This document shows positions 6,267 through 23,842 of a stretch of 39,432 nucleotides of DNA, in pieces. Location of the stretch: the NCBI GenBank assembly GCA_024279685.1, contig JAJRRI010000016.1, forward strand, positions 1-39,432, given 5' to 3'. The first letter of the stretch is position 1. Each line of letters starts with the position of its first letter. A model generated the notes under the pieces. The model was not told where the DNA came from, ran no database searches, and saw nothing but the letters and a program-made list of their open reading frames with translations. Made by a program: the position numbers and the translations under genes. Origin of the DNA: Verrucomicrobiota bacterium. Lineage in GTDB: Bacteria; Verrucomicrobiota; Kiritimatiellia; Kiritimatiellales; Pontiellaceae.

Positions 6267-6267
6267 A

Positions 6268-7734
6268 GTGAAATTTCTAATCGACACCAATGTTTTTATC
6301 CCGCTGGAGCCAGCTTCTTTGGTAGATATAGAGGAGCTGAGTCCATCTGCCGCTCAACTACTTCGTTTGATTCAGGAAAACGGGCACCAAGTTTTTCTCC
6401 ACCCGAAAAGTCTTGTGGATATCGGAAAGGATAAAAATACTGAACGACAACAGCTACGGCGGCTTGCCTTTGAAAAATATCCGCATTTGGAAGGGACGGC
6501 TACTCCGTTTATCGATTTTACAATGATTGTTGGCGAGGCGGAGTCTGACTCGAACAGCGATGTCGATAACCACCTGCTATTTTCTGTCCACTGTAATGCC
6601 GTGGATTTTCTTGTCAGCGAGGATCGGGGGGTTCACAAGAAGGGGCGGCAGTTGGGGATTGAAAATAAGGTGTTCCGAATTACCGATGCGATTCGAATGC
6701 TGGAGCAGTTGATGACCACGCATATTGATGTTGTTTTCCCCTCCATAGAAATGGTGAAAGCCTTCTCCATCGATTTGAAGGATCCGATTTTTGAATCCCT
6801 TAGGGAGGGATATTCCGAATTCAATGAGTGGTTCGTCAAGTGCCGAACCGATCATCGAGATTGTTTTGTTATTTCCGGCGAAAAGGGGCTGGATGCCCTC
6901 TGTGTTTTGAAGGATGAAAGCAGTGGTGAATATGGAATGCCGGGCAAGATTTTAAAGGTTTGCACTTTCAAGGTTGGAGCCCATGCCTCTGGTTATCGAT
7001 ACGGGGAGTTGATGCTTAAGGCGGTTTTGAGCCATGCTTACAATAATGGCTATGATTGGGCTTATGTTACTGCTTACGAGGAAAATGAACGGATTTGTGT
7101 GTTTTTGGATACATTTGGGTTTTCTGATGAAGAGAATTTCAAAACCGGACTTGGAGAAAATGTATTTAAACGGAAACTGCATCCCGAAGATGCAGATTTT
7201 GGACTGTCTCCGCTGAGCTTCCATATCCGTTTTGGCCCTAAATATATTTCCGGGGAATGTGCATCCTATATTATTCCGATTCAGCCGCAATATCATCGAC
7301 TTTTATTTCCGGAACTAGAACGGCAGACGGATTTTTTTGTTGAAAGAAATCCCTTTGGAAACAGTATCCTCAAGGCCTATCTATGCCATTCAAACACGAA
7401 AAAAATTGAGCCTGGTTCGTTGTTGTTTTTCTACCGTTCGGATGATTCCAAGGTTGTCCAATCGATAGGAGTAGTGGAAAAATGTATCCGCTCGGCTGAT
7501 TCATCAGAAATCGTTAAATTTGTCGGAAAGCGGACGGTTTATTCGTATCAAGCAATAGACAGGATGTGCAGCAAAGAGGTGTTGGCCATATTATTTCGGC
7601 AAGCCAATGGTTATGAAATTTCGATTTCTAGAAAACTATTGGAGAACTCTGGGGTTTTTGCTCGTCCTCCCCAATCCATTTCAAGCATCAGTAAAGAAGG
7701 TCATACATGGTTGTTGAGTCAAAAAAGAATATAG
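6268..7734 (+). CDS. PIN-GNAT-PUA-like three-domain fusion protein
   Basis: The most likely start is the GTG at 6268, because the family-like sequence begins there (VKFLIDTNVF); the open frame extends into leuA but that part is not protein-like. The product is 488 aa. Residues 1-150 form a PIN nuclease-like domain with D6 in LIDTNVF, acidic D98/D100, and D119 in SEDRG. Residues about 180-300 look like a GNAT acetyltransferase (GYRYGELMLKAVL at 242-254, later FLDTFGF). Residues about 365-488 resemble a PUA/EVE-type RNA- or nucleotide-binding fold (GSLLFFYR at 383-390, then IGVVEKC at 400-406). Its last 28 bases overlap the ASCH gene, so the two are co-translated. No clear ribosome site precedes the GTG. 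A+T content is higher than in the flanking genes. The function is unknown; an RNA-targeting toxin or defence role is an inference. Confidence 0.75.
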   Translation: MKFLIDTNVFIPLEPASLVDIEELSPSAAQLLRLIQENGHQVFLHPKSLVDIGKDKNTERQQLRRLAFEKYPHLEGTATPFIDFTMIVGEAESDSNSDVDNHLLFSVHCNAVDFLVSEDRGVHKKGRQLGIENKVFRITDAIRMLEQLMTTHIDVVFPSIEMVKAFSIDLKDPIFESLREGYSEFNEWFVKCRTDHRDCFVISGEKGLDALCVLKDESSGEYGMPGKILKVCTFKVGAHASGYRYGELMLKAVLSHAYNNGYDWAYVTAYEENERICVFLDTFGFSDEENFKTGLGENVFKRKLHPEDADFGLSPLSFHIRFGPKYISGECASYIIPIQPQYHRLLFPELERQTDFFVERNPFGNSILKAYLCHSNTKKIEPGSLLFFYRSDDSKVVQSIGVVEKCIRSADSSEIVKFVGKRTVYSYQAIDRMCSKEVLAILFRQANGYEISISRKLLENSGVFARPPQSISSISKEGHTWLLSQKRI

Positions 7735-8153
7735 TCCTACTTTCGATAAAGCCAAAGTATGCCCATGCCATTTTGGCAGGGGGGAAAACCGTGGAATTTC
7801 GGAAGATACAGTTCAAGCGGGAAGTCAGCCATGTTATGATTTATTCGAGTAGCCCGGAAATGAAGGTGGTTGGGTATTTTGAAATCGACAGGGTGGATGT
7901 GGGGCGTCCAATGACTGCGTGGAAAAAATACAGATTGCAGGGGGGGATCAGTTATCAGGACTACTCCAATTATTATGAGGGTCGTGATACCGCGGTAGCG
8001 ATTGCTATAAAATGTGTAACGGTTCTTTCAAAACCTGTAACCTTGAATGGGTTGAAGCGAGGCCTGAAGGCTCCTCAGAGCTTTTGTTATTTGGACTCAC
8101 TATATCTGAAGAAGCTGATGAATTGGGACGGCACTGTGCTTGGAGCAGGCTGA
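7707..8153 (+). CDS. ASCH (PUA-like) domain protein, partner of the PIN-GNAT fusion
   Basis: This 148-aa protein carries the ASCH signature GGKTVEFRK near residues 26-34, the conserved G-x-K-x-x-E/x-R element of the family. ASCH domains share the PUA fold and are thought to bind RNA or modified nucleobases; some members act on modified nucleosides. The ATG at 7707 lies inside the end of the preceding gene, preceded by AGAAGG at 6-base spacing, which supports coupled translation. It may recognise the RNA handled by the PIN-GNAT protein or act as its antidote; both are inference. A 79-base promoter-bearing gap separates it from the TAC locus. Confidence 0.7.
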   Translation: MVVESKKNIVLLSIKPKYAHAILAGGKTVEFRKIQFKREVSHVMIYSSSPEMKVVGYFEIDRVDVGRPMTAWKKYRLQGGISYQDYSNYYEGRDTAVAIAIKCVTVLSKPVTLNGLKRGLKAPQSFCYLDSLYLKKLMNWDGTVLGAG

Positions 8154-8178
8154 GCGGTAGATTTTAGATGTACCTGAA

Positions 8179-8207
8179 TTGACAGTATTAGTATCAATTG
8201 ATACCTT
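8179..8207 (+). promoter_or_regulatory. promoter of the toxin-antitoxin-chaperone operon
   Basis: A consensus TTGACA (8179-8184), a 17-base spacer and TACCTT (8202-8207) form a sigma70-type promoter. The expected start is near 8214, giving a leader of about 19 bases before the ATG at 8233. The spacer and -10 element are overlapped by a perfect palindrome (8191-8204), the arrangement expected for autorepression by the antitoxin. Confidence 0.65.
8191..8204. promoter_or_regulatory. perfect 14-bp palindrome, probable antitoxin operator
   Basis: GTATCAATTGATAC is self-complementary over all 14 bases. It sits between the -35 and -10 elements and covers the first bases of the -10, 29 bases before the toxin start. 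HTH antitoxins of the HigA/MqsA type bind such palindromes to repress their own operon. That the encoded antitoxin binds here is inferred from position and symmetry. Confidence 0.6.
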
Positions 8208-8232
8208 ATTGGTTCAATGAAAAGGAAAGTAC

Positions 8233-8577
8233 ATGGCAACGGAGTCGATACCAAAAGAGTGGAGAGAGACGGTATGTACAATTCTTCGTTTGCAAGACAA
8301 CTCGAAAATTCAGATCACACTACGAGCGCAAAAGGATTTTGCTGCACAGTTCCCCAATGCTTGGAATTTTAACCTATATAATTTTTTAACGTGCTATTTA
8401 TCGCGATCCGATGCAACCGGTCAACTGGTTGCAGACTTAAAACCGCCTGGAGCAGCTTACGAGTTTATCTGCAAGTATGAAGGCGAACCGGTCTATGCAA
8501 AAATAAATCTATTGGTAGCAGGCGATGTTATTATAATCGTTTCTGCCCACCGCCCACTGAAAGGCAACAAATTATGA
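8233..8577 (+). CDS. putative toxin of a TAC module (MqsR/RelE-like)
   Basis: This 114-aa protein is the first gene of a three-gene overlapping operon and sits in the toxin position of toxin-first systems (HigBA, MqsRA). The C-terminal half has a strand-rich pattern (YEGEPVYAKINLLVAGD, then VIIIVSAHRP), which resembles the small RelE/MqsR/DUF4258 group of mRNA interferases. I cannot fix the family from sequence by eye, and no catalytic residues are claimed. The ATG at 8233 follows AAAGGAAAG. The stop overlaps the antitoxin start by 4 bases (ATGA at 8574-8577). If it is a toxin, it should inhibit translation by cutting mRNA, held off by the next gene. Confidence 0.6.
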   Translation: MATESIPKEWRETVCTILRLQDNSKIQITLRAQKDFAAQFPNAWNFNLYNFLTCYLSRSDATGQLVADLKPPGAAYEFICKYEGEPVYAKINLLVAGDVIIIVSAHRPLKGNKL

Positions 8578-9071
8578 AAAAAGAAATGATCGAGGTTGAT
8601 GTTCCTGTTCCGTCAATCGATAGACAATCAATTGCGTATATTGCAAAGGCAACAGTTAGTGCTGTTTTTGACGAATTTTATCAAGATTATGTTTTGGATG
8701 GCGACGCACTGTTGGAAATTGATCGGGTAAAGGCCCGCCATATGGGGTTGATGCAGCCTGAAGAGATTAAAGCTCTGCGCGAACGACTGGATATGACCCA
8801 GAAACAGATCGCCGAACTGTTGCAGATTGGTGCGAAATCTTGGTCGCGCTGGGAAACAGGGAGGGAACGACCTTCGCGATCCATGAATATCCTGATTCGT
8901 TCCCTGAATGATGGAAAGATAGATCCTAACTATTTACGGTCGCTGAAAGAGGATAAGCAACCCGCTTGGGGACGTATATTGCACGTTTCTAAAGGGATGA
9001 GTGTTAAAAACCAACCTATTTCAATTAGAGGTTTATCTGATAAAAAGTTTAGTACGAGGGAGGCTGCATAA
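8574..9071 (+). CDS. MqsA/HigA-like HTH antitoxin with C-terminal extension
   Basis: This 165-aa protein has an Xre-type helix-turn-helix at about residues 62-112, of the MqsA style (MTQKQIAELLQIGAKSW, then SRWETGRERP). It lacks the N-terminal CxxC zinc motif of E. coli MqsA. Residues about 128-165 are an extra hydrophilic tail beyond the HTH. In studied TAC systems such a tail is the chaperone addiction region recognised by the SecB-like partner. It overlaps the toxin by 4 bases, and its stop shares one base with the chaperone start (9071), so all three are translationally coupled. It probably represses the operon through the palindrome at 8191-8204. Confidence 0.8.
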   Translation: MKKEMIEVDVPVPSIDRQSIAYIAKATVSAVFDEFYQDYVLDGDALLEIDRVKARHMGLMQPEEIKALRERLDMTQKQIAELLQIGAKSWSRWETGRERPSRSMNILIRSLNDGKIDPNYLRSLKEDKQPAWGRILHVSKGMSVKNQPISIRGLSDKKFSTREAA

Positions 9072-9505
9072 TGCAAACTGCATCCAATTTACAACTTGAA
9101 CACTATTTTCTTACGGCACTCAACTATACCGTGAATCCAGATTTTAATCCGGAAGATCCTATTAAATTTGAATTTACGGATATTGTTACGGAATACGGGA
9201 AGCAGCCGCTGAATAAAAAGTCAAATAAGGAGTGGCAGGTCGATTTGAAAATAGAATTTATTCCACCGGAGGAAAGGAATATACCCTATTCTTTTTCTGC
9301 TTCAATTGTCGGGTTCTTTTCTATCGGCCCCAATATTTCCGAGGAGAAACTTGAAAATTTTATCGAGATAAACGGAACCAGTGTCCTGTACAGTACTCTT
9401 CGAGAAATTATTCATACCCTTACAGCCAAAGGGCCGTTTCGCGCTTTGTTGCTTCCAACGCTTTGTTTCCAGAAAGATGAAAAGGAAATTGACCAGAGAA
9501 AATAG
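9071..9505 (+). CDS. SecB-like chaperone of a TAC module
   Basis: This 144-aa protein matches the SecB fold. The diagnostic C-terminal part (about residues 96-133) reads NFIEINGTSVLY, then LREIIHTLTAKG, then RALLLPTLCF, the SecB helix followed by the conserved LLLP strand. General SecB holds preproteins for SecA. A SecB-like gene as third member of a toxin-antitoxin operon is the hallmark of TAC systems such as Rv1955-Rv1957 of Mycobacterium tuberculosis, where the chaperone folds and protects an unstable antitoxin. The start ATG overlaps the antitoxin stop by 1 base. Length and order fit a dedicated TAC chaperone better than the housekeeping SecB. Confidence 0.8.
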   Translation: MQTASNLQLEHYFLTALNYTVNPDFNPEDPIKFEFTDIVTEYGKQPLNKKSNKEWQVDLKIEFIPPEERNIPYSFSASIVGFFSIGPNISEEKLENFIEINGTSVLYSTLREIIHTLTAKGPFRALLLPTLCFQKDEKEIDQRK

Positions 9506-9628
9506 ACTGATCTTTATTGCAATGTGTTAAATACCGATGTCGACCGCTTGCAAAAAATAGTTCTAATATTAGGCAATGGAATTTTCGACGGATGATCTGA
9601 AGTTCCTGCTGGCTCAAGGTGTAGTAAA

Positions 9629-10150
9629 ATGAATGTAATTGATGCAGATTTGTCACATGTTAAATATCTTTCTGACTTTGGACGAAAATCATTCATTCAT
9701 GCGTATCAATGTACTTTGCCGCTAGAAGAGTTGAATAAATACATCAGCGATGCCTTTTCAGAATCCACCATTCTAGCAGAGATCAAGAGCTTGTTGGGAA
9801 CTTATCTTGTTGCTCAGGATTCGAAACTTAATCTATGCGGGTATGCTAAGTTAATTGAATCTCCTTCTCCAAAATGTATCGGGTTGCACCGTTGCATTGA
9901 GCTTCAGCGCTTGTATGTGGATGACGATTATAGAGGTCAGGGAGTCGGGAGACTTTTGGAGTCTCACGCTGAGGTAATTGCTCGAGGCCGAGGCATGCAA
10001 GGCCTTTGGCTTCAGGTTTGGGAAGGCAATGTTGTCGCTCAGGATATATACAAAAGATGGGCCTTTTCAACGGTTGGGGAAAAACAATATCAAGTCGGGG
10101 AAAATCAAAGAACTGTGTTGCTGATGCGTAAATTATGGGTCAGCAGATAG
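9629..10150 (+). CDS. GNAT acetyltransferase, PaiA-like
   Basis: This 173-aa GNAT protein has the acetyl-CoA-binding motif RGQGVGRLL at about residues 101-109 and the following WLQVWEGN segment near 130-137, then an aromatic-rich end. These are characteristic of PaiA-like spermidine/spermine N-acetyltransferases and related enzymes. Substrate specificity cannot be read from sequence. It is 123 bases downstream of the TAC operon with no feature recognised between, and it precedes aroE. Its coding tail overlaps the open frame upstream of aroE but not the preferred aroE start at 10174. Whether it belongs to the accessory island or to the host backbone is unclear. Confidence 0.8.
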   Translation: MNVIDADLSHVKYLSDFGRKSFIHAYQCTLPLEELNKYISDAFSESTILAEIKSLLGTYLVAQDSKLNLCGYAKLIESPSPKCIGLHRCIELQRLYVDDDYRGQGVGRLLESHAEVIARGRGMQGLWLQVWEGNVVAQDIYKRWAFSTVGEKQYQVGENQRTVLLMRKLWVSR

Positions 10151-10173
10151 CAACACCAACACAAGGAACTGCT

Positions 10174-21553: not shown

Positions 21554-22546
21554 GTGAACACGAGGTTCTTTGGCGAGACCATGGGTCATTGGGCAAGTAT
21601 ACTAAGGAATATGGATATTATGGAAGTCTACCGATGTTTATCACTAACTCTGTCTTACGATGGGAACCAGTCCTCGAATCACGAGATTGATCTTTATGAC
21701 GTGGCTAAAGCATTGATGGGGTTCCAACGTTCATTGGCATTAACAACGCACTTAGTTCTACATAATGAAATAATTACGCAGGCTCCTGCTCTGAAGGAAG
21801 CATTCATTCTTGCGAGCCCGCCAATCGAAGGCAGTTGGAAAATTCCTGCGAAGGTTATGGTTCCCGTATCCATGCTTTACGCGCTGAATTTTGTTCCTAG
21901 TAGTTCACCCGTGGGGCATTTGGTACGCTCCGCCTATGACTACGTTGTAAATGAAACACTTGGTTTTCATGTGGACTATGACCAGTCTTTAGGCCAGCAG
22001 TACGAAGATCTAAAGCAAACGGATAGTAAACTTCCGGTTCTTGAGCAGCACAGGCTCGATTCTTTGGCCGAAAAATGTGAGATCGCCATTAAAGAGATGC
22101 ATCGTCCAATCAAAGGGCGGGAAACTGCATTATCTGCCAACATTAAGGCGTGGTCTTTTTCTGAGGCCATTCAGGTGCTTGGACCCGAATTAAACGTCGA
22201 TACGTATAATAGCATCGGACTAACGGACACAGATACAAGAAAACATATCATTGTCGGTAAAATATCCAGCTATAACAGCAATACATTCAAGGGGCGGATA
22301 TATGAGTTAGAGGAAAAGAGACCTATTTCTTTTGAACTTTTGAATGATGCCAAAACGCAAAATGCTATAAACTTAATTACTAACAGCCTTGTGGTTAATG
22401 CACGCAGGGAAGTTGAGGAAGGTAGCAATGGAGTCATTTACTGCCGAGCCTATAAAGAGACGAGTAAAACCGGCACTTTGAAAAATTTGACTATTATCGA
22501 AGTTTCAAACAGGGAATTTCCTGGTCATGGAGCCTTTGAATTATAG
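21554..22546 (+). CDS. uncharacterised two-domain protein
   Basis: No function is recognised. The N-terminal half (about residues 25-165) is helical, with a distinctive IDLYDVAKALMGFQRSLA segment and later GHLVRSAYDYVV. The C-terminal part (about 220-325) is strand-rich (HIIVGKISSYNSN, then FKGRIYELEE), suggesting a small beta-barrel. From memory this resembles the DUF7946/DUF7947 pairing, but I could not verify that. Start choice is open: GTG at 21554 has AGGGGA too close, while ATG at 21620 (or 21611) follows AAGGA at 21604-21608; 21620 gives 308 aa. The gene is A+T-richer than pdxA and rsmA. It may travel with the ImmA/IrrE-DUF4411 pair, from which a promoter separates it. Confidence 0.65.
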   Translation: MNTRFFGETMGHWASILRNMDIMEVYRCLSLTLSYDGNQSSNHEIDLYDVAKALMGFQRSLALTTHLVLHNEIITQAPALKEAFILASPPIEGSWKIPAKVMVPVSMLYALNFVPSSSPVGHLVRSAYDYVVNETLGFHVDYDQSLGQQYEDLKQTDSKLPVLEQHRLDSLAEKCEIAIKEMHRPIKGRETALSANIKAWSFSEAIQVLGPELNVDTYNSIGLTDTDTRKHIIVGKISSYNSNTFKGRIYELEEKRPISFELLNDAKTQNAINLITNSLVVNARREVEEGSNGVIYCRAYKETSKTGTLKNLTIIEVSNREFPGHGAFEL

Positions 22547-22639
22547 GAATAAGAATTGCCGACCCTGATGTGCAGGCAGGATCAGATGAAAGCAAAGTAG
22601 ATAGGCTCAGAAAGTATAGAAAGTGACTTTTAACGGTTA

Positions 22640-22668
22640 TTGCTCCAATGCCTAGATGTCGGTATAAA
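22640..22668 (+). promoter_or_regulatory. promoter of the ImmA/IrrE-DUF4411 pair
   Basis: TTGCTC (22640-22645), a 17-base spacer and TATAAA (22663-22668) predict a start near 22675, about 19 bases before the ATG at 22694. This promoter overlaps a longer open frame that could start at 22640, and it is a reason to prefer 22694. Confidence 0.5.
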
Positions 22669-22693
22669 AAGAGACAGGAGAGATGAGATTGTA

Positions 22694-23842
22694 ATGAGTG
22701 TGGCATACATAAATTCGGAGGTATTGACTTGGGCGCGAGAGCGTGCCGGAGTTCCGCCCGAGGATCTGATGCAGATCAATCGGAAGTACGTCGATTGGGA
22801 GGCGGGAAATTCTCTTCCCACCTTCTTGCAGGCCCAGATGCTCGCTAAGAAACTCCATGTTCCCTTTGGTTTTTTCTATCTTTCCGAGCCACCTAAAGAA
22901 AAACCTCTGACCGTTGATTTGAGGACGTTGAGCGATTCCCATCGTCATAAGTTTAGCTTGGAGTTGCGGGACGTGATCGCCGATGCTCAGCGCAAGCAAG
23001 ATTGGTATCGGGAGTTTTTGCTGGAAGGCGGAGCCGAATCGCTGGAGTTTGTCGCGAAATACAGCGTCGCTCATTCTGTAGAGGAAGTTGCGAATGATCT
23101 CACAGAAACGATTGGCCTCTCTTTGAATGATCGCACCGGTTTTACCAAAGATAATTTTTTGGCCTATCTGACAGAACATACGGAAGAGGCCGGTATTCTG
23201 GTGCTGCGGAATGGGAAGGTGGGAGCCAATACACATCGTGTTTTGGATGTGGACGAGTTTCGCGGATTTTCCTTGCCCGATTCCATTGCTCCGGTTGTAT
23301 TTGTGAATACGGCTGATTTTATGGCGGCACAAATTTTCACATTGATTCACGAGCTGGTACATCTTTGGTTAGGGGCGGAAGGCGTTTCTGATCAGGGGAT
23401 TGCCACCTATAATTCCCACTCCAAGGTGGAGGTTTTTTGCAACCAAGTCGCTGTGGAGGTTTTAGTTCCGAAAGACGCCTTTTTGCGGGAATGGAAACGG
23501 CTTAATGGAAGTCTTGAAGAAAAATCGGATCGCTTAAGCCGGATATTCAAGGTGAGGTCCATCGTAATTGCACGTCGAGCATTGGATTCTCGGTTGGTGG
23601 AGCGCTCTTCTTTTTTTGAGTATTACAACGATCTGCGGGTTATTTGGAAGAATGACCGAAAAAGTAGATCTGGTGGAGGAAATTTCCATAATTCGTTACC
23701 GGTTGCCAATAGCCGGACGCTAACAGATGCCATTTGCCATGCCACCTATTCCGGGAATTTACTGATGCGTGATGGCGCACGGCTATTGGGGATAAAGCCC
23801 GCCACTCTGAGCAAATATGCCAAAAAACGAGGGGTAATGTGA
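22694..23842 (+). CDS. HTH-ImmA/IrrE family zinc metalloprotease
   Basis: This 382-aa protein from the ATG at 22694 begins with an Xre-like region (about 5-65) that ends in the hallmark LHVPFGFFYLSEPP of this group. The peptidase domain carries HELVH at 219-223 and the downstream glutamate in KVEVFCNQVAVEVLVP (244-259), the ImmA/IrrE (COG2856) zinc site. ImmA-type proteases cleave repressors to switch on mobile or stress genes. The last 50 residues (LLGIKPATLSKYAKK) look like a second small DNA-binding or partner-binding helix set. Its final codons overlap the GTG of the DUF4411 gene (ATGTGA at 23837-23842). This pairing is recurrent in genomes and behaves like a toxin-antitoxin or regulatory pair, by inference. 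Confidence 0.85.
   Translation: MSVAYINSEVLTWARERAGVPPEDLMQINRKYVDWEAGNSLPTFLQAQMLAKKLHVPFGFFYLSEPPKEKPLTVDLRTLSDSHRHKFSLELRDVIADAQRKQDWYREFLLEGGAESLEFVAKYSVAHSVEEVANDLTETIGLSLNDRTGFTKDNFLAYLTEHTEEAGILVLRNGKVGANTHRVLDVDEFRGFSLPDSIAPVVFVNTADFMAAQIFTLIHELVHLWLGAEGVSDQGIATYNSHSKVEVFCNQVAVEVLVPKDAFLREWKRLNGSLEEKSDRLSRIFKVRSIVIARRALDSRLVERSSFFEYYNDLRVIWKNDRKSRSGGGNFHNSLPVANSRTLTDAICHATYSGNLLMRDGARLLGIKPATLSKYAKKRGVM

Follow-up and report, generated by a model that had tools for sequence, protein, structure and literature searches.

Loci in which a toxin and its antitoxin are accompanied by a chaperone (toxin-antitoxin-chaperone, TAC) have been described in Escherichia coli and Mycobacterium tuberculosis. 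In the MqsRAC system of E. coli (C496_10) the toxicity of MqsR is relieved only by MqsA together with MqsC, and phage T2 is blocked, according to the available part of (PMC9519451); the system acts in concert with restriction (PMC10783111). The same available part of (PMC9519451) states that the PD-T4-9 system was later named CmdTAC. In the accessible portion of (PMC11618068), a phage capsid protein draws off the chaperone of CmdTAC and the LAA at the end of CmdA is described as a ClpXP signal. The TAC of M. tuberculosis (HigBAC, Rv1955-1957) is stress-induced, as given in the accessible text of (PMC5105189), and its chaperone-addiction (ChAD) peptide is EVPTWHRLSSYRG, including W108, R110 and Y114, in the extract available of (PMC6377645). 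Here we describe by computational means a three-gene locus of this kind in a member of the Pontiellaceae (Verrucomicrobiota; contig JAJRRI010000016.1 of assembly GCA_024279685.1), located in a stretch of 39,432 nucleotides hereafter called the window. We consider it probable that the locus belongs to a zinc-less, MqsRAC-like anti-phage TAC lineage organized as an autoregulated operon.

The toxin and antitoxin genes overlap by 4 bp (ATGA, 8574-8577) and the antitoxin and chaperone genes by a single base at 9071, within TAATG, just where a first-pass annotation had put them. That annotation began the locus at 8179; the places of the open reading frames (ORFs) stand, but 8179 is not a gene start, being the first base of a TTGACA box that precedes the toxin gene, which starts at 8233. 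Judging from the overlaps, the trio is probably co-transcribed. The same gene order was found in relatives whose aligned toxins were 30-44% and SecBs 27-44% identical to those of the window, and since the order recurs in such diverged relatives and 18 of 27 genomes with the toxin family have SecB next in line, the arrangement is beyond chance. With 32.8 bits the third product scores above the cut-off of Pfam SecB (26), a significant family match that bears out the SecB-like gene and is consistent with the fold proposed before. Further matches are to the PADLOC model PD-T4-9_C (E 4.7e-7) and to PHROG 21664 (3.4e-9; of unknown function). In the assembly (about 94% complete) no other protein matches Pfam SecB.

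The antitoxin carries a helix-turn-helix (HTH) region above the Pfam cut-offs of both MqsA_antitoxin (PF15731; 33.4 bits, cut-off 30) and HTH_31 (39.3 bits, cut-off 27), in line with its earlier description as MqsA/HigA-like, and its HTH profile matches MqsA at 98.6%. It lies below the NCBIfam cut-off for MqsA (TIGR03830; 56.2 against 61.8). The CxxC zinc-binding N-terminal domain of MqsA was not found in the window antitoxin, which has 0 cysteines, so that the absence of the zinc motif already suspected is real. Its own N-terminal domain has another sequence, aligns with MqsA over 26 columns at most (probability 4.7%) and gave no clear fold in a structure search, the matched rows covering mainly residues 55-119. 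Antitoxin ORFs of 89-109 residues without the HTH exist in three relatives (L008 (L022), L037 and L043), all of them without SecB and without an intact copy of the operator candidate described below; their existence points to the N-terminal domain as the part that binds the toxin. At the other end, 42 residues follow the HTH by counting (about 38 extra residues had been noted), and residues 132-165 are predicted to be disordered (predicted local distance difference test, pLDDT, under 50). A stretch of this tail, PAWGRI, is similar to the ChAD peptide around W108 and R110 as given in its partly available source, whereas the window has V in the place of Y114. The R two positions after the tail Trp is, by eye, not conserved in most relatives.

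No Pfam or NCBIfam model of MqsR matched the toxin, and none of nine family members matched Pfam MqsR, in keeping with the earlier remark that the protein falls into no clear family (a genome search with PF15723 gave no match anywhere, controls included, and is uninformative). The predicted structure matches MqsR over residues 2-104 with a root mean square deviation (rmsd) of 2.3, 4 Z units above the next structural match (rmsd 3.5 or more for the others), and the toxin also matches MqsR by profile. From this model we think it highly likely that the toxin has an MqsR fold; a RelE/MqsR-like fold was indeed what had been expected of it. Residues K90, S104 and H106 were invariant in all 24 toxins aligned, H106 being aligned with the lysine of the MqsR SFK motif, and by analogy the toxin is probably an mRNA-cleaving RNase. 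The RNA target preference of MqsR is GCU. Among viral structures, the best match of the model was a phage protein named as an HTH-type regulator (E 1.0e-3, probability 1.00, template modelling score 0.58).

The closest known system is therefore MqsRAC and not HigBAC, because the predicted toxin fold is that of MqsR; the TAC reading of the first-pass annotation holds, but its parallel with Rv1955-1957 gives way to a nearer one. MqsRAC (E. coli C496_10 and the plasmid loci L033, L034 and L055) has in common with the window the toxin-antitoxin-SecB order, the MqsR fold, the MqsA-like HTH and the long tail. It keeps company with defence genes too, L033 adjoining a gene annotated as DISARM drmA. 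The window differs in a toxin outside the MqsR models, in an antitoxin without the zinc sites and in a palindrome of its own, GTATCAATTGATAC. Since the toxin does not match the family model and the antitoxin has no zinc site, the trio is set apart: it would work like MqsRAC but is not counted as a member of MqsR/MqsA. With CmdTAC the window has in common the three-gene logic, the chaperone model and an antitoxin ending in AA (LAA in CmdA, as available in PMC11618068). CmdT is, however, an ADP-ribosyltransferase and CmdA reportedly consists of two helices and an unstructured C-terminus; neither was matched in the window, where the toxin model is MqsR-like and gave no PADLOC toxin match. HigBAC shares the TAC logic and an HTH antitoxin; its toxin is of the HigB type, probably a difference from the window.

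The toxin family comprises 27 distinct genomes, window included, after searches over overlapping genome sets (13 of 387 genomes; 16 of 387 with a profile; 15 of 345 in one class; 10 of 305 in another). Three weak matches (L015, L030, L032) were dropped as chance, and a SecB match in L002 (E 0.05) looked by eye like MutL. The named relatives are Lentisphaerae, Verrucomicrobia and Spartobacteria metagenome-assembled genomes plus one uncultured bacterium, which would all fall in the Verrucomicrobiota in the GTDB sense. These relatives in an under-studied phylum, together with a toxin lacking a family model, support the distinct lineage that had been put forward. No relative of the toxin was found in phage and plasmid collections (tblastn, E <= 1) or in a first scan of viral contigs; a viral-contig copy (L148/L206) has toxin, antitoxin and SecB, with an integrase-like ORF nearby (by eye). 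A marine toxin-antitoxin survey reportedly names MqsA and Verrucomicrobi. In the literature search, the sole paper pairing toxin-antitoxin-chaperone with Verrucomicrobi apparently concerns Rel enzymes, as far as its available part goes.

SecB was present in 18 of the 27 genomes; five had a full antitoxin without SecB and three an HTH-less antitoxin without it, and in the remaining one (L038) the contig ends too soon for a call (on the tree it was counted with the SecB-bearing rows). Antitoxin tails were 40-105 residues long with SecB (n=18) and 12-35 without (n=5), with no overlap, a separation of 1 in 33649 that would be valid only for independent loci, which these are not. A tail Trp occurred in 16/18 and 0/5 respectively (p 0.0006; 17/19 with the viral copy added, p 0.0005). 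Shorter, Trp-free tails where SecB is missing are what chaperone addiction predicts. In a toxin tree of 24 rows (L012, L031 and L043, without a full toxin, were excluded) the SecB label changed 5 times, all changes being forced by well-supported branches, and was no more clustered than when shuffled (235/500 as low). We have little doubt about the TAC architecture, given the SecB membership, the disordered tail and this natural co-absence of long tail and SecB. A more tentative proposal, which we hold at somewhat under even chances, is that the chaperone and the antitoxin tail form one removable cassette, by which TAC and plain toxin-antitoxin (TA) loci would interconvert repeatedly with operator and toxin unchanged, phage sensing being switched by module in an unnamed TAC lineage across the phylum.

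Upstream of the toxin lies GTATCAATTGATAC, a perfect 14-bp palindrome present once in the 2.69-Mb assembly; a comparable one arose in 0.9% of shuffles of the window upstream stretch. In the 200 bp that precede the toxin start, it recurs at 2 mismatches or fewer in all 22 loci (the window among them) with an HTH antitoxin and a readable toxin start, a match equalled by none of 300 shuffles per stretch. None of the three HTH-less loci has it (6, 5 and 4 mismatches in L008, L037 and L043), a split with an exact probability of 1/2300 if loci are taken as independent. In L043, where the toxin is broken as well, what looks like a decayed copy remains (shuffle P 0.05), and L042, the tree sister of L008 and L037, carries the site as well as the HTH. 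L012, in which the first half of the toxin frame is missing, has no palindrome; L031, a contig holding only the end of the toxin and ending before its start, lies outside the count; and L148 carries the palindrome but was found through it and is not independent. TTGAC stands 5-9 bases ahead of the site in 14 of the 23 loci having it (by eye). A generic scan called no plus-strand promoter at the operon. Upstream of 12 MqsR comparator genes there was no such operator (5-7 mismatches at best), several having other palindromes. The exact palindrome was found in 7 of 318 genomes, 5 times at the TAC locus and twice elsewhere, in L081 and L083, which have no family member; it was not found in any paper within reach of the literature search. 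In viral contigs a 16-bp form, GGTATCAATTGATACC, was detected in at least 120 stretches; of the 80 that were listed, L148 alone has both the toxin and the antitoxin, and two others, L090 and L087, match just the antitoxin profile (2.7e-11 and 3.8e-7). In viral stretches this form is perhaps the operator of other HTH regulators.

The trio sits in a low-GC (guanine plus cytosine) insert (6267-10173) between leuA and aroE, behind the two PDC-M11 genes and ahead of a GNAT acetyltransferase (Table 1). The GC fraction falls from 0.543 in leuA to 0.39-0.45 in the insert genes and rises to 0.554 in aroE. Of 14 genomes searched for aroE, 13 (own genome included) gave a match, and the 12 congeners among them all have leuA and aroE side by side (8-143 bp apart by alignment ends); in these 12, the DNA covered, up to 1.5 kb to either side, gave no match to the insert genes. 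The 200-base stretches at the two insert ends share no direct or inverted repeat of at least 8 bases, no integrase was noticed in the insert, and PDC-M11 did not appear in any paper within reach of the literature search. Farther along, at 21554-23842 of the window, lies what resembles another two-gene insert: a hypothetical ORF and, after it, a protein with XRE and ImmA/IrrE-like parts (by eye).

Wider DNA was available for 20 of the 26 relatives, and 30 neighbouring proteins were compared with PADLOC, 20 of them picked by eye with preference for likely defence genes and 10 added so that each locus had at least one. Matches at 1e-10 or better appeared in 11 of the 20 loci, with none in the other 9 among the proteins scanned; with the window, known or candidate defence genes lie near 12 of 21, a raw count and not an enrichment. 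An Hma-like defence locus surrounds the TA or TAC in L066 (8150-8874) and L074 (8311-9693), with HmaA on one side and HmaB on the other. L074 has a 678-residue ORF between HmaA and toxin; L066 has no SecB and is missing the first half of its toxin frame.

Table 1. Features of the TAC locus and its insert in the window, and defence genes near related loci
Feature	Locus	Position	Strand	Remarks
PDC-M11A, candidate defence protein	window	6268..7734	+	PADLOC E 1.3e-168, frame from 6271; GTG start 6268 by eye
PDC-M11B, ASCH domain	window	7707..8153	+	PADLOC E 1e-42
TTGACA, -35-like box	window	8179..8184	+	read by eye
GTATCAATTGATAC, perfect 14-bp palindrome, operator candidate	window	8191..8204	.	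overlaps weak -10 box 8202-8207 (by eye)
Toxin ORF, ATG start	window	8233..8577	+	114 residues; predicted MqsR-like fold; invariant K90, S104, H106
Antitoxin ORF, ATG start	window	8574..9071	+	165 residues; beta domain 3-41, HTH helices 43-125, tail 132-165
QPAWGRILHVSKG, candidate chaperone-addiction segment of antitoxin tail (W132)	window	8958..8996	+	Trp and tail length track SecB; putative binding
GAGGGAGG, Shine-Dalgarno-like, for chaperone	window	9056..9063	+	in final antitoxin codons; by eye
SecB-like chaperone ORF, ATG start	window	9071..9505	+	144 residues; Pfam SecB match
GNAT acetyltransferase, final insert gene	window	9629..10150	+	173 residues; directly after TAC
Type I restriction-modification	L059; L061 (~6 kb away)			PADLOC
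Type IIG restriction-modification	L064, L069			PADLOC
HmaA and HmaB flanking module	L066, L074			PADLOC
AbiD and SIR2	L067			PADLOC
HEC-07	L068			PADLOC
Type III methylase and Gabija	L072			PADLOC
Upx	L076			PADLOC
PDC-S05, ~2 kb away	L062			PADLOC

From these data the following mechanism may be proposed. In the uninfected cell the antitoxin N-terminal domain would hold the MqsR-fold toxin, and its HTH would bind GTATCAATTGATAC in the promoter and repress the operon. The SecB-like chaperone, seated on the disordered Trp-bearing tail, would guard the antitoxin from aggregation and proteolysis. On infection the chaperone would be drawn away, most likely by an unfolded phage protein if CmdTAC is a guide; the freed antitoxin would be degraded and the toxin would halt translation and abort the infection. 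By the same analogies we lean, somewhat, towards an anti-phage role.

That the locus is simply a diverged MqsRAC member, an MqsA with a lost zinc site and no separate status, is an explanation to which we give an appreciable, if minority, probability. The fold and profile matches of the toxin to MqsR, the HTH matches of the antitoxin to MqsA and the gene order, as in the plasmid loci with an MqsR-type toxin, MqsA and SecB, all fit it; the failed MqsR and NCBIfam MqsA models, the cysteine-free and scarcely alignable N-terminal domain and the lack of the operator at the MqsR genes do not. If instead the toxin were a BECR-fold protein of the RelE/HigB branch, HigBAC would be the true relative. 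This is very unlikely in view of the Z and rmsd gap, of a match that starts at residue 2 where the RelE/HigB-type matches shown begin at residue 7 or later, and of a toxin-first order that also fits MqsRA. Just as improbable, in our judgement, is a SecB that serves as an ordinary export chaperone or hitchhiker behind a normal two-component TA. In five loci a toxin gene, broken in the case of L012, is indeed joined by a full-length antitoxin with no SecB, but SecB follows in two thirds of the loci (18/27), antitoxins with no SecB beside them are also without the long, Trp-bearing tail, and the chaperone profile resembles that of CmdTAC; that it is the sole SecB of the assembly fits either reading. 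A module for stress response or island maintenance (addiction) rather than phage defence would agree with the absence of the insert from congeners and with the stress induction in M. tuberculosis (available part of PMC5105189). We regard it as unlikely, since defence genes (restriction-modification, Hma, Gabija, AbiD and others) are repeatedly found close by and two E. coli TACs, CmdTAC and MqsRAC, are reported as anti-phage.

Several observations weigh against the zinc-less anti-phage TAC lineage that we prefer. For the fold, the Foldseek E-value of the toxin model against MqsR is weak (6.3e-3), identity in structural alignments is 12-17%, hhalign against MqsR subsets is weak too (2.3% for the classic, 24.4% for the TAC type), and both structure models (toxin and antitoxin) were built on five sequences. 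As the three HTH-less loci seem to form one clade, the correlation of operator and HTH there amounts to a single event. With kinship controlled, SecB and Trp could be compared in 4 independent tree pairs, of which 3 agree and 1 has no difference (p 0.25), and L044 and L046 have SecB with no tail Trp. Co-absence alone is not proof of dependence because one junction deletion could remove tail and SecB together. The terminal AA of the antitoxin, ClpXP degron-like, does not separate the groups (11/18 with SecB, 1/5 without, p 0.15), and in the overlapping genes of L005 and L006 its bases double as the SecB start (by eye). Finally, 9 of 21 neighbourhoods had no PADLOC match, again as a raw count.

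As a class of phage defence, TAC systems are young, with few lineages known, and the toxin of this one matches no family model in Pfam or NCBIfam. A palindromic operator candidate conserved across the phylum opens its regulation to direct test, and since relatives with and without the chaperone exist in nature, chaperone addiction could be examined on real sequences and not on engineered truncations. The presence of the module between HmaA and HmaB genes, and beside Gabija, points to what may be a working role in defence islands.
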